This document shows positions 8,934-31,425 of a DNA stretch of 45,017 nucleotides, piece after piece. The stretch covers positions 1 through 45,017 of the forward strand of contig JAFXHA010000067.1 in the NCBI GenBank assembly GCA_017536635.1, in the 5' to 3' direction. The translations under genes and the position numbers were made by a program. Every line of letters begins with the position of its first letter. Within the stretch, counting starts at the first letter, position 1. A model generated the notes under the pieces. The model had not been told where the DNA came from. It saw only the letters and a program-made list of their open reading frames with translations, and searched no databases. This stretch comes from Clostridia bacterium. Its GTDB lineage: Bacteria > Bacillota > Clostridia > Oscillospirales > CAG-272.

Positions 8934-8953
8934 ATTTTTTGTAAATCAAATGC

Positions 8954-9033
8954 ACCAATATAATTTTGAATATTTGGATCGATCCTCGGGCTCAAAAGTT
9001 TCTACCATAACGCCGCAAGTTATGACTATTGGT
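8954..9033 (+). promoter_or_regulatory. Purine (guanine-class) riboswitch aptamer with expanded P2 loop
   Basis: The outer stem P1 is ACCAATA (8954-8960) with TATTGGT (9027-9033). TAAT follows P1. The signature joining segment GTTTCTACC lies at 8998-9006, P3 is ATAAC/GTTAT with loop GCCGCAA, and the closing joining segment is GACTAT (9024-9029). The C in GACTAT is the guanine/hypoxanthine-type specificity base (adenine aptamers have GATTAT). P2 can form from TTTTGA/TCAAAA, but its loop is about 22 nt instead of about 7. It keeps a GG that could kiss the CC of the P3 loop. It precedes a nucleoside importer, a known target type, and is followed by a terminator. Confidence 0.82.
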
Positions 9034-9066
9034 TATGTTCTGAATTTTAATTCTTTTGAAATTTTT

Positions 9067-20272: not shown

Positions 20273-20301
20273 TTGACAAACCAGAAAAGATAAGGTATAA
20301 T
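20273..20301 (+). promoter_or_regulatory. Promoter of the putative iron-regulated small RNA
   Basis: Perfect TTGACA (20273-20278) and TATAAT (20296-20301), spacer 17. An operator palindrome begins 8 bases after the last base of the -10 box, overlapping the predicted start near 20308. Confidence 0.9.
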
Positions 20302-20308
20302 AATTTCA

Positions 20309-20324
20309 GTTAGCACAGGCTAAC
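20309..20324. promoter_or_regulatory. DtxR-family operator 1 (GTTAGC-ACAG-GCTAAC)
   Basis: A perfect 6+6 palindrome with 4-base centre, overlapping the predicted transcription start of the small-RNA unit. The half-site is like that of the DtxR/IdeR box. Confidence 0.75.
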
Positions 20325-20342
20325 CGATTTTTAAGCCGGTTG

Positions 20343-20358
20343 GTTAGCATATGCTAAC
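20343..20358. promoter_or_regulatory. DtxR-family operator 2 (GTTAGC-ATAT-GCTAAC)
   Basis: A second copy of the same palindrome, 34 bases after the first, within the transcribed region; this spacing is a little over three helical turns. It is fully symmetric, including the ATAT centre. Confidence 0.75.
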
Positions 20359-20474
20359 TATTACGGAAACTCCATTTCTCCGCTATTCAGCGAGGCGGGG
20401 AAGAAAAACTCCAAAATTGCAATAAAAACTCCTAAAACCGTTTAACTTCCGTAAAAATTTTATTAGTACAGCAA

Positions 20475-20509
20475 AATCGCCGCGATTTTTTCGCGGCGAT
20501 TCTGTTTTT
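20475..20509 (+). terminator. Terminator of the putative small RNA
   Basis: An 11-bp stem, AATCGCCGCGA/TCGCGGCGATT (20475-20485 with 20491-20501), TTTTT loop, then CTG and five T. It isolates the upstream unit from the regulator gene, which has its own promoter. Confidence 0.9.
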
Positions 20510-20522
20510 GTGAAAAAACGTA

Positions 20523-20551
20523 TTGAAAAAATTGAAATTATGTGTTATAAT
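20523..20551 (+). promoter_or_regulatory. Promoter of the DtxR-family regulator gene
   Basis: TTGAAA (20523-20528) and TATAAT (20546-20551), spacer 17. No operator palindrome overlaps it, so the regulator gene itself may be constitutive. Confidence 0.85.
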
Positions 20552-28742: not shown

Positions 28743-28771
28743 TTGACAACTTTTGTGAATAGATATATAAT
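28743..28771 (+). promoter_or_regulatory. Promoter of the feo operon
   Basis: Perfect TTGACA (28743-28748) and TATAAT (28766-28771), spacer 17. The operator palindrome begins 8 bases after the last base of the -10 box, as at the small-RNA promoter. Confidence 0.92.
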
Positions 28772-28778
28772 ATATGTG

Positions 28779-28794
28779 GTTAGCAGATGCTAAC
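28779..28794. promoter_or_regulatory. DtxR-family operator 3 (GTTAGC-AGAT-GCTAAC)
   Basis: The same palindrome as at the small-RNA promoter, over the predicted feoA transcription start. Bound repressor would block initiation when iron is sufficient. Confidence 0.82.
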
Positions 28795-28818: not shown

Positions 28819-29037
28819 ATGAATTTACGTGCCGCAGAAGAAGGAAAAGAATATATCATTCAGCAAATCAATACCGACGACGAGGAGCTCGATGCGTTTT
28901 TGTTTTCGCTCGGCTGTTACAGCGGAGAGCCCATTACGGTTATCTCTCATTTGAAGAGAAGCTGTGTCGTGTCTATCAAGGACGGTAGATACAACATCGA
29001 TAAGGAGCTCGCAGAGGCGATCATCGTAAAAGATTAA
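28819..29037 (+). CDS. feoA: Ferrous iron transport protein A
   Basis: A 72-residue FeoA-type protein with an SH3-like fold: MNLRAAEEGKEYIIQQI, a FLFSLGCYSGEPITVISHLKRSCVVSI core and a terminal ELAEAIIVKD. FeoA is a small cytoplasmic partner of FeoB. The frame is open to an ATG at 28774, but that codon overlaps the operator and transcription start. The ATG at 28819, with GGAG at 28809-28812, is the translation start. It is the first gene of the feo operon. Confidence 0.88.
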   Translation: MNLRAAEEGKEYIIQQINTDDEELDAFLFSLGCYSGEPITVISHLKRSCVVSIKDGRYNIDKELAEAIIVKD

Positions 29038-29076: not shown

Positions 29077-29092
29077 GTTAGCCGCCGCTAAC
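29077..29092. promoter_or_regulatory. DtxR-family operator 4 (GTTAGC-CGCC-GCTAAC)
   Basis: A fourth palindrome, between feoA and feoB. A TATAAT lies 23 bases downstream (29115-29120) with a poor -35, so the site may cover the -35 region of an internal feoB promoter. Confidence 0.7.
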
Positions 29093-29143: not shown

Positions 29144-31171
29144 ATGAGAATCGCACTTGCGGGCAACCCCAACAGCGGTAAAACAACAATGTATAACGCC
29201 CTGACCGGACGCAACGAAAAGGTTGGAAACTGGGCAGGCGTTACGGTTGATAAGAATGAGCATTCTATCAAGAAAAGCTTGTACAAGGGCGAGGCAGAGC
29301 TTATAGCAGTTGACCTTCCCGGAGCTTATTCTATGTCTCCCTTTACGTCTGAGGAGAGCATCACCAGCTCTTACGTAAAGAACGAGAATCCCGATGCAAT
29401 AATCAACATCGTGGACTCCACAAACCTCAGCAGAAGCTTGTTCTTCACAACACAGCTGCTTGAGCTTGGCATACCCGTAATAGTTGCGCTCAACAAGACC
29501 GACGTCAACAAGAAAAAGGACAACAAGATAGATGCCAAGGCACTTTCCGAGAAGCTCGGATGCCCCGTTGTCGAGACCACGTCAACTACCGGCGACGGTA
29601 TGAAGGACGTTGTTGCGGCTGCAGTTGCGGCTATCGGCAAGACTCAGGACGCTCCCTATATTCAGGATGACGTTGACCTCACCGACAAAAAGGCGGTTGA
29701 GGAGGCAGACAGAAAGCGTTTTGCGTTCGTCAACGGCATCGTAAAGGACGTGGAGACGAGAAAGGTCCTCACCAAGAATAAGAACGCGCAGGATAAGATC
29801 GATGCTATCCTTACTAACAAGTGGGTAGGTCTTCCGATATTCGCGCTCGTAATGCTCGCTGTATTCTGGATCTCCCAGGCAGGACCTGCGGTATGGCTTG
29901 CGGATGGGCTTACCGGATTGCTGGAAAAGGGCCAGGAAGCGATCGCAGATGCGATCTCGTCCGACAGCATCTGGGCATCTATACTCGTAGACGGTATTAT
30001 CGGCGGTGTTATAGCCGTTATAGGATTCTTGCCGCTCGTAATGGTAATGTATTTCCTCATCGCGCTTCTTGAGGACTGCGGATATATGGCACGCGCTACC
30101 GTTGTGCTCGACCCGATATTCAAGAAGGTCGGACTTTCGGGTAAGTCGGTAATTCCGTTTATCATCGGTACCGGCTGTGCTATCCCCGGCGTTATGGCTT
30201 GCCGTACGATCAGAAACGAGCGCGAACGCCGAGCTACCGCTATGCTCGCTCCCTTTATGCCTTGCGGAGCAAAGCTTCCCGTTATCGCGCTCTTTGCGGG
30301 TGCATTCTTCGCGGATTCCCCTTGGGTAGGCGCTTCGATGTATTTCGTAGGTATCGTTATTATATTCCTTTGCGCGCTTCTCGTAAATAAGCTCACGGGA
30401 CATAAGAACAGAAAATCCTTCTTCATTATCGAGCTTCCCGAGTACAAGGCGCCGAGCATCTGGAAGGCGTTCCTTTCCATGTGCCAGCGCGGATGGGCTT
30501 ACATAGTCAAGGCGGGAACTATTATCCTCGTTTGTAACTTCGCGGTGCACTTAATGCAGACGTTCGGCTGGAATCTCAAGCCGGTTGAGGACGCAAGTGA
30601 ATCTATCCTTGCTACAATCGCTACTCCTTTTGCTTATCTTTTTGCTCCCATTATCGGTGTAGTAGGTTGGCAGTTTGCGGCTGCGGCTATTACGGGCTTT
30701 ATCGCAAAAGAGAACGTGGTCGGAACTCTTGCCGTTTGCTTTGGAATCTCCAATCTCATCAATATGGATGAGCTTGCTATGGTTGAGGGTGCGGCAGGAT
30801 CTGTTGCAGAGGTGTTTGGTATGACCTCGGCTGCGGCTCTTGCGTTCCTGATGTTCAACCTCTTCACACCGCCTTGCTTTGCGGCGATCGGTGCAATGAA
30901 CTCCGAGATCAAGAGCAAAAAGTGGCTTTTTGCAGGTATCGGACTTCAGTTCTCGGTAGGATATTCTATCGGATTCCTCGTATATTTCTTCGGAACGCTC
31001 TTTACCACCCGCGATTTCGGCGCCGCTTGGATGCCTATCGTAGGTTGGGCGATCGTTGGCGTTATCGTTGCGATATTCACAACACTCATTATCAGAAAGA
31101 ACAAGCAGCTCAAGGCTGAATACGAGCTTCAGGCAGCTGCTAAAAAAGAAAAGGAAACTGTAAACGTTTAA
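29144..31171 (+). CDS. feoB: Ferrous iron transporter FeoB
   Basis: A 675-residue Fe(II) transporter of the cytoplasmic membrane. The N-terminal G domain has G1 GNPNSGKTT (7-15), G3 DLPGAYS (57-63) and G4 NKTD (117-120). The membrane part starts near 225 and contains the family's gate segments: GYMARATVVLDPIFKKVGLSGKS, IGTGCAIPGVMACRTIRNERER and APFMPCGAKLPVIALF. The second half ends in another set of helices and a charged tail. AGGAGGAG precedes the start. It is co-transcribed with the FeoB-associated Cys-rich gene and controlled by the operators upstream. Confidence 0.97.
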   Translation: MRIALAGNPNSGKTTMYNALTGRNEKVGNWAGVTVDKNEHSIKKSLYKGEAELIAVDLPGAYSMSPFTSEESITSSYVKNENPDAIINIVDSTNLSRSLFFTTQLLELGIPVIVALNKTDVNKKKDNKIDAKALSEKLGCPVVETTSTTGDGMKDVVAAAVAAIGKTQDAPYIQDDVDLTDKKAVEEADRKRFAFVNGIVKDVETRKVLTKNKNAQDKIDAILTNKWVGLPIFALVMLAVFWISQAGPAVWLADGLTGLLEKGQEAIADAISSDSIWASILVDGIIGGVIAVIGFLPLVMVMYFLIALLEDCGYMARATVVLDPIFKKVGLSGKSVIPFIIGTGCAIPGVMACRTIRNERERRATAMLAPFMPCGAKLPVIALFAGAFFADSPWVGASMYFVGIVIIFLCALLVNKLTGHKNRKSFFIIELPEYKAPSIWKAFLSMCQRGWAYIVKAGTIILVCNFAVHLMQTFGWNLKPVEDASESILATIATPFAYLFAPIIGVVGWQFAAAAITGFIAKENVVGTLAVCFGISNLINMDELAMVEGAAGSVAEVFGMTSAAALAFLMFNLFTPPCFAAIGAMNSEIKSKKWLFAGIGLQFSVGYSIGFLVYFFGTLFTTRDFGAAWMPIVGWAIVGVIVAIFTTLIIRKNKQLKAEYELQAAAKKEKETVNV

Positions 31172-31183
31172 AAAGGTGAAAGT

Positions 31184-31384
31184 ATGAACCCTGCAGACAT
31201 TATTGTGATCGCGCTTATAGTCCTGATAATCGGCGGCGCGTCCGCTTATATCATCAAGGCTAAGAAAAGCGGTAAAAAGTGCATAGGCTGTCCCGACAGC
31301 TCCTCGTGCTCTTCAAAATCGAAGGAAGGCGGCTGCGGCGGCTCATGCGAGCATTGTTCTTCGTGTAGCGGAGAACAGAAATAA
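31184..31384 (+). CDS. FeoB-associated Cys-rich membrane protein
   Basis: A 66-residue protein with one N-terminal membrane helix (about 5-25), a basic stop (KAKKSGKK) and a Cys/Ser/Gly-rich cytoplasmic tail with eight cysteines, including CIGC, SSCSS, GGCGGSCEHCSSC. This is the FeoB-associated Cys-rich family, possibly an iron-handling partner of FeoB in place of FeoC. It starts 12 bases after feoB with AAAGGTGA upstream. Confidence 0.92.
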   Translation: MNPADIIVIALIVLIIGGASAYIIKAKKSGKKCIGCPDSSSCSSKSKEGGCGGSCEHCSSCSGEQK

Positions 31385-31390
31385 GAATAT

Positions 31391-31425
31391 AAAAATCGGC
31401 AGAGAAGTTTCTCTGCCGATTTTTT
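31391..31425 (+). terminator. Terminator of the feo operon
   Basis: AAAATCGGCAGAG/CTCTGCCGATTTT around an AAGTTT loop, followed by T residues. Confidence 0.92.

Follow-up and report, generated by a model that had tools for sequence, protein, structure and literature searches.

A predicted iron-repressed non-coding transcript beside a dtxR-family gene of a Clostridia bacterium, possibly driven by an orphaned feo promoter

The window, a contig stretch of 45,017 nucleotides, belongs to the genome of a gut Clostridia bacterium (1.9 Mb, 88% complete; G000). Between rpsR and a gene for a DtxR-family repressor it carries a short transcription unit, for which the coordinates given in a preliminary description of the window were correct (Table 1). 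The promoter, described there as perfect, matched at 12/12 positions, and the two GTTAGC-N4-GCTAAC palindromes at and after the start site were both exact. Operator 1 starts 7 nt past the -10 box and thus covers the expected start site. The tandem arrangement, with the second operator 34 nt after the first, is present also at feo promoters in other genera. The strong terminator (11 pairs) and, behind it, the dtxR gene's own promoter (11/12 match) were likewise confirmed.

Table 1. Features of the short unit, the adjacent dtxR-family gene and the feoAB operon (positions in the window).
Feature	Position	Strand	Basis or remark
Short-transcript promoter TTGACA-17-TATAAT	20273..20301	+	12/12 match
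Predicted non-coding transcript, about 200 nt	20308..20510	+	promoter, terminator, no credible ORF, fold
Operator 1, GTTAGCACAGGCTAAC	20309..20324	.	exact palindrome at predicted start site; same geometry at feoA
Operator 2, GTTAGCATATGCTAAC	20343..20358	.	exact palindrome, 34 nt after operator 1
8-bp closing stem, 5' arm	20361..20368	+	in minimum-energy fold; within chance
Stretch with four CTCC copies	20370..20432	+	20370-20373, 20378-20381, 20409-20412, 20429-20432; possible anti-Shine-Dalgarno seeds
Inner hairpin	20376..20402	+	20376-20384 paired with 20394-20402; covers second CTCC (predicted)
8-bp closing stem, 3' arm	20447..20454	+	in minimum-energy fold; within chance
Short-transcript intrinsic terminator	20475..20510	+	stem 20475-20501, 11 pairs, then T-rich tail
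Separate dtxR promoter, without operator	20523..20551	+	11/12 match
DtxR-family repressor, 123 aa	20585..20956	+	PF01325 and PF02742; aligned to DtxR and MntR
feoA promoter with same operator in same place	28743..28794	+	0 mismatches to promoter-operator pattern
feoA	28819..29037	+	PF04023; start chosen by analogy with G009
Operator between feoA and feoB	29077..29092	.	exact palindrome
feoB (type 1 of genus)	29144..31171	+	PF02421; genus comparison
FeoB-associated Cys-rich small membrane protein	31184..31396	+	sequence, relatives

The neighbouring repressor is the sole match of its kind in the G000 genome (E <= 0.001). Its nearest named relatives come from Clostridia MAGs, mostly of herbivore or other gut origin, with identities of at most about 73% (best 80 of 537). 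In the alignment with the solved DtxR and MntR, its Met9, Cys100, Glu103 and His104 correspond to Met10, Cys102, Glu105 and His106 of DtxR, and the Asp and Glu of MntR are missing at those positions. We take these residues to represent the regulatory iron site of DtxR, of the iron type rather than the MntR type. Two Fur-family genes are located elsewhere in the genome, so the DtxR protein need not be the sole metal regulator, which counts against the main reading given below.

The pattern TTAGC-N4-GCTAA was found at four places in G000. Two are at the short unit and two in the feoAB operon about 8 kb away, where one site is at the start site of feoA and the other separates feoA from feoB. Since this shorter pattern gave 6 matches in the reversed control, the count alone is no proof and the argument is carried by where the sites lie. 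With the outer bases included, the full palindrome had 4 sites in G000 and none in the reversed control. Within the genus we counted 50 exact operator sites in 25 of 30 genomes, and the promoter-operator pattern with up to 3 mismatches was present in 15 of the 30 (G000 included); the reversed control gave 0 in both cases. Family-wide, TATAAT-N7-palindrome with up to 2 mismatches was detected in 66 of 146 genomes (92 places listed vs 8 for the reversed control) and was not found at this threshold in 80.

The loci examined were scanned for the promoter-operator on both strands, and part of the genus operator sites were read in context. Among 110 good promoter-operators in these loci, 92 had feoA or feoB within 1.5 kb downstream, and some of the remaining ones precede Cys-rich, heavy-metal-associated or other genes. 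In at least nine genomes, including G000, an operator site precedes dtxR by no more than a few hundred bases. Elsewhere in the family and genus (L108, L113, L109, L139, L309, L112, L129, L111, L120, L137), the genes behind the operator resemble, by eye, another DtxR-like regulator, small proteins of the heavy-metal-associated kind, two unnamed protein families and a formate-acetyltransferase-like gene. Such a variety of putative targets would amount to a wider iron regulon. Judged from its distribution, the palindrome very probably functions as an operator. Its binding by the neighbouring DtxR protein we infer from their adjacency and co-occurrence. The proposed control of the unit by an iron-type DtxR repressor is supported at the sequence level by the operator shared with feoAB in G000, by the occurrence of this operator across the genus and family and by the DtxR-type ligands.

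An operator-promoter followed by a terminator, with no credible gene between, was present among the loci examined in five species of the genus, G000, G006, G021 (here followed by the contig end), G009 and G029. The five units form three classes with no match between classes in sequence searches. The 146 family genomes were searched at the DNA level with the G009 and G006 units; they include G000, G010, G012 and G029 as the only members of this genus, and the other genus members were scanned by pattern search only.

The clearest history is that of G006 and G021. In G007 a Cys-rich gene stands behind feoB. The G006 unit aligned to this gene (nhmmer E 6.9e-9), with a local score of 95 against a shuffled maximum of 48 (0/40), and the G021 unit aligned along with it up to its contig end. 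By eye, both have lost the start codon and their frame is broken by gaps. Judging from these alignments, the two units (L078 1514-1715; L069) are the decayed Cys-rich gene tail of a lost feo operon. In both species feoA and feoB are gone and the promoter-operator is fused to the tail, divergent from dtxR; feoAB is still present in the same place in G005, G007, G008, G010 and G018. On a separate contig, G006 carries a further feoAB, which belongs to the window's type.

In G029 the short unit lies directly upstream of feoA, and the same probably holds for G009, where two contig ends (L365/L366, C55/C24) share 91 identical bases. The terminator of the G009 and G029 units resembles, loop included, the one behind the other-type feo operon of G016. 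The loop TTTTCCGTTTTT is common to these terminators (L345, L071, L144) and was seen in six contexts in all among the examined loci. When aligned to feo-operon ends, the G029 unit scored best with that of G016 (46 vs a shuffled maximum of 42; 0/100). The G009 unit scored best with the end of G020 (51) and only then with G016 (45; shuffled maximum 46), which weakens the parallel. Twelve terminator pairs were compared between G009 and G029, with 2 changed on both sides and 1 on one side (131/500 shuffles as good), but this covariation says little because a terminator keeps its pairing anyway and there are only two sequences. In the DtxR tree, G009 and G029 were grouped with G016, G017, G023 and G028. 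Given this grouping and the terminator likeness, replacement of a feo operon may have left its promoter and terminator behind in G009 and G029, although the similarities are suggestive only.

The carriers of short units form no single clade, with 0% of 200 bootstrap trees for both FeoB (16 rows given, G023 dropped as it has no long ORF) and DtxR (27 rows given, G002 and one outgroup dropped). Two FeoB types occur in the genus; depending on the stretch compared, one shares about 69-85% and the other about 35-56% identity with the FeoB of the window. Together with the disagreement of the FeoB and DtxR trees on G000, G009 and G029, this suggests operon replacement or transfer.

A feo operon occupies the place of the G000 unit in G003, where the order is SSB, rpsR (S18), promoter-operator, feoA, feoB, Cys-rich gene and dtxR. 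The G000 unit may therefore be an orphaned feo promoter. We found no feo remnant in it by alignment to feo-operon ends, as the scores were at the shuffled level (20/40 and 66/100 as good), whereas in the G006 unit, our positive control, the DNA alignment detected the remnant. A six-frame profile search of the G000 unit also found none; this search is insensitive, since even the G006 and G021 units were weak in it (best E 0.0082, for G021). The relic origin thus follows from the place of the unit and the parallel in sister species, not from its sequence.

It is likely, from the arrangement of these elements, that the unit gives rise to an iron- and DtxR-repressed non-coding transcript beside dtxR. 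Our main reading, to which we assign a probability of roughly 0.55, is that a feo-type promoter has outlived its lost operon and that the RNA is either a mere by-product or a regulator of recent origin. When iron is replete, the neighbouring DtxR loaded with Fe(II) would bind the start-site palindrome and its tandem copy and block initiation. Under iron limitation the short-unit promoter would fire together with feoAB, and transcription would stop at the terminator, upstream of the promoter that serves dtxR. The promoter would have belonged to a feo operon formerly situated between rpsR and dtxR and would have outlasted it. The RNA could then be idle, or could have been recruited as a regulator owing to its production under iron shortage.

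The collapsed feo operons documented by the G006 and G021 units in two sister species, and the G003 operon at the very place of the G000 unit, argue for the orphaned promoter. A by-product of an operon-less promoter, perhaps en route to an sRNA, is the reading best supported by the relatives. Against a relic stand the lack of a detectable feo remnant in the unit and the retention of feoAB about 8 kb away. In addition, the perfect promoter and both operators argue for maintained use or a recent origin, and four CTCC copies are more than expected of junk.

Less probable, though the strongest competitor of the orphaned promoter, is a dedicated iron-sparing sRNA of the RyhB, FsrA, IsrR or MrsI kind, whose exposed CTCC would pair with the Shine-Dalgarno sequences of iron-using mRNAs. 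The operator common to the unit and feoAB fits such an RNA, as do the strong terminator and the separate dtxR promoter. The CTCC motifs fit it as well. Three copies of AAACTCC and another CTCC had been noted as complementary to the Shine-Dalgarno GGAG, and the clustering of CTCC is borne out. The 114-nt interior has four CTCC copies against a shuffle mean of 0.39, and at least four were reached in 1 of 5000 shuffles. The three AAACTCC copies were matched by 0/5000 shuffles, while 360/3000 shuffles of the interior had some 7-mer present three times. The copy at 20378-20381 lies inside a predicted stem, and the other three are predicted to be unpaired or nearly so. These repeats would fit a recruited regulatory RNA too, without proving it.

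The fold of the RNA does not favour a dedicated sRNA. The whole predicted transcript had a fold z of -6.2, with 0/200 shuffles as good. However, the interior (20359-20470) reached only z = -1.58, and 13/200 shuffles folded equally well, so the low value of the whole is largely owed to the palindromes and the terminator. The 8-bp closing stem pointed out in the preliminary description exists and is part of the minimum-energy fold, but a perfect inverted repeat as long occurred in 43/300 interior shuffles.

Conservation, which had been suggested as a check, also argues against the dedicated sRNA. With blastn against 59 genomes, one per species and its own included, the G000 RNA had no full relative in the 58 others at E <= 10. 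The matches listed, itself aside, were short, none exceeding about 50 nt, and the best of them (E 6.7e-4) covered 21 nt of the terminator. Over the examined loci, nhmmer returned the RNA itself and weak matches (best E 0.00088, on the operator stretch), and without the first operator it returned itself only at E <= 0.5. What follows the shared switch differs between sister species: when the G000 interior was locally aligned to the units of G006, G009 and G029, the scores were at chance (303/500, 258/500 and 120/500 shuffles as good, respectively). The G006 unit has 3 CTCC in its first 120 nt (43/5000 shuffles with as many), which is no proof of common descent given the alignment at chance, and the G009 and G029 units have no CTCC copies.

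The other suggested check, target prediction on Fe-S gene starts, gave no better pairing than background. From 19 Fe-S domain matches we took 18 Fe-S starts, with a mean of -18.8 kcal/mol. Of these, 13 had a good Shine-Dalgarno; their mean was -17.7, compared with -16.0 kcal/mol for 32 background starts (p = 0.31), and 21/100 shuffled RNAs paired as well as the real one. The comparison is a weak one: a motif complementary to the Shine-Dalgarno would match the start of any gene, and the starts were predicted, several of them and of the background ORFs being guesses. Of the DtxR-controlled RyhB or FsrA analogue originally proposed, the DtxR-type control, the gene-free unit and the CTCC cluster stood, and the conservation, the significance of the stem and the Fe-S pairing did not. 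That the G000 RNA silences iron-using mRNAs is a guess.

Known systems show what a functional counterpart looks like. MrsI (ncRv11846) of mycobacteria is described in PMC8628891 and PMC9410917 as an sRNA made on iron starvation with a site for IdeR, a DtxR-family protein, in its promoter. DtxR-family control of an iron-responsive sRNA is therefore already known, and the G000 unit resembles MrsI in this logic. It differs in that the seed and targets of MrsI are known, whereas the G000 unit is a predicted transcript, read from its DNA alone. IsrR of Staphylococcus aureus, as presented in PMC9410917, is 174 nt long. It has three single-stranded regions rich in C and two predicted repressor boxes, one of which, a Fur box, lies just past the start site. 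The length class, the two boxes and the predicted unpaired C-rich stretches are shared with the G000 unit, and this likeness speaks for an iron-sparing sRNA. In contrast, IsrR is under Fur, not DtxR, and 18 non-identical orthologues were modelled according to the same text, while we found no relative of the G000 unit. FsrA of Bacillus subtilis, as told in that text, is an iron-repressed RNA that directs a C-rich motif against Shine-Dalgarno sequences (PMC9410917); it needs the FbpABC chaperones and is under Fur, whereas the G000 unit has a DtxR-type operator. Among the matches listed, open-literature titles and abstract beginnings described no DtxR-controlled iron-responsive sRNA in Clostridia.

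Nearest to the G000 unit are the feoAB promoters of its own genus and family, with the same TATAAT-N7-GTTAGCN4GCTAAC; they run into feoA or feoB, and the G000 unit runs into a terminator. The G006/G021 and G009/G029 units have the same operator-promoter and are also short, free of a credible gene and closed by a terminator (a contig end in G021), but they differ in sequence. Even a flawless promoter-operator-terminator unit does not on its own make an sRNA gene. The genus series, with several short units behind one operator and one demonstrably collapsed feo tail, is more useful than a lone candidate. PMC9410917 states for Fur that an iron-sparing RNA can be recruited from any transcript under repressor control, and the series offers a concrete, testable case of this idea. 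More speculatively, repeated loss or replacement of feo operons across the genus could free iron-controlled promoters whose leftover transcripts are raw material for iron-responsive sRNAs. The units might then be successive stages of sRNA birth, from the fresh pseudogene tail in G006/G021, through promoter and feo-like terminator with a short RNA in two species (G009/G029), to G000 with no remnant and four acquired CTCC seeds. We regard this succession as doubtful, and less probable than the dedicated sRNA.

It is improbable that the unit is a leader or attenuator of dtxR, which would allow read-through into dtxR under some condition and so autoregulation. It lies upstream of dtxR on the same strand, and in G003 dtxR comes right after the feo genes, but a strong terminator and dtxR's own promoter intervene here, and several relatives have an operator-free dtxR promoter about 60-70 nt before the gene. 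Still less credible is a role of the operators as a decoy or local store that adjusts the amount of free DtxR, with the RNA irrelevant: the tandem sites do adjoin dtxR, yet a pair of sites could titrate only a very scarce repressor, and a decoy would not need a complete promoter and terminator. Least probable of all is an mRNA for a very small protein, since the only plus-strand ORF of at least 20 codons that starts inside the transcript has just 24 (20351-20425), begins with an ATG inside operator 2 and shows no Shine-Dalgarno ahead of it on inspection by eye; the region is, as first described, without a credible gene.

In a search of the window with Rfam, no family reached its gathering score at the short unit. 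The sole match was located elsewhere, a purine riboswitch (RF00167, 48.7 bits, 8936-9048, plus strand) that lies 5' of ABC-transporter-like genes, the ORFs of which were judged by eye.
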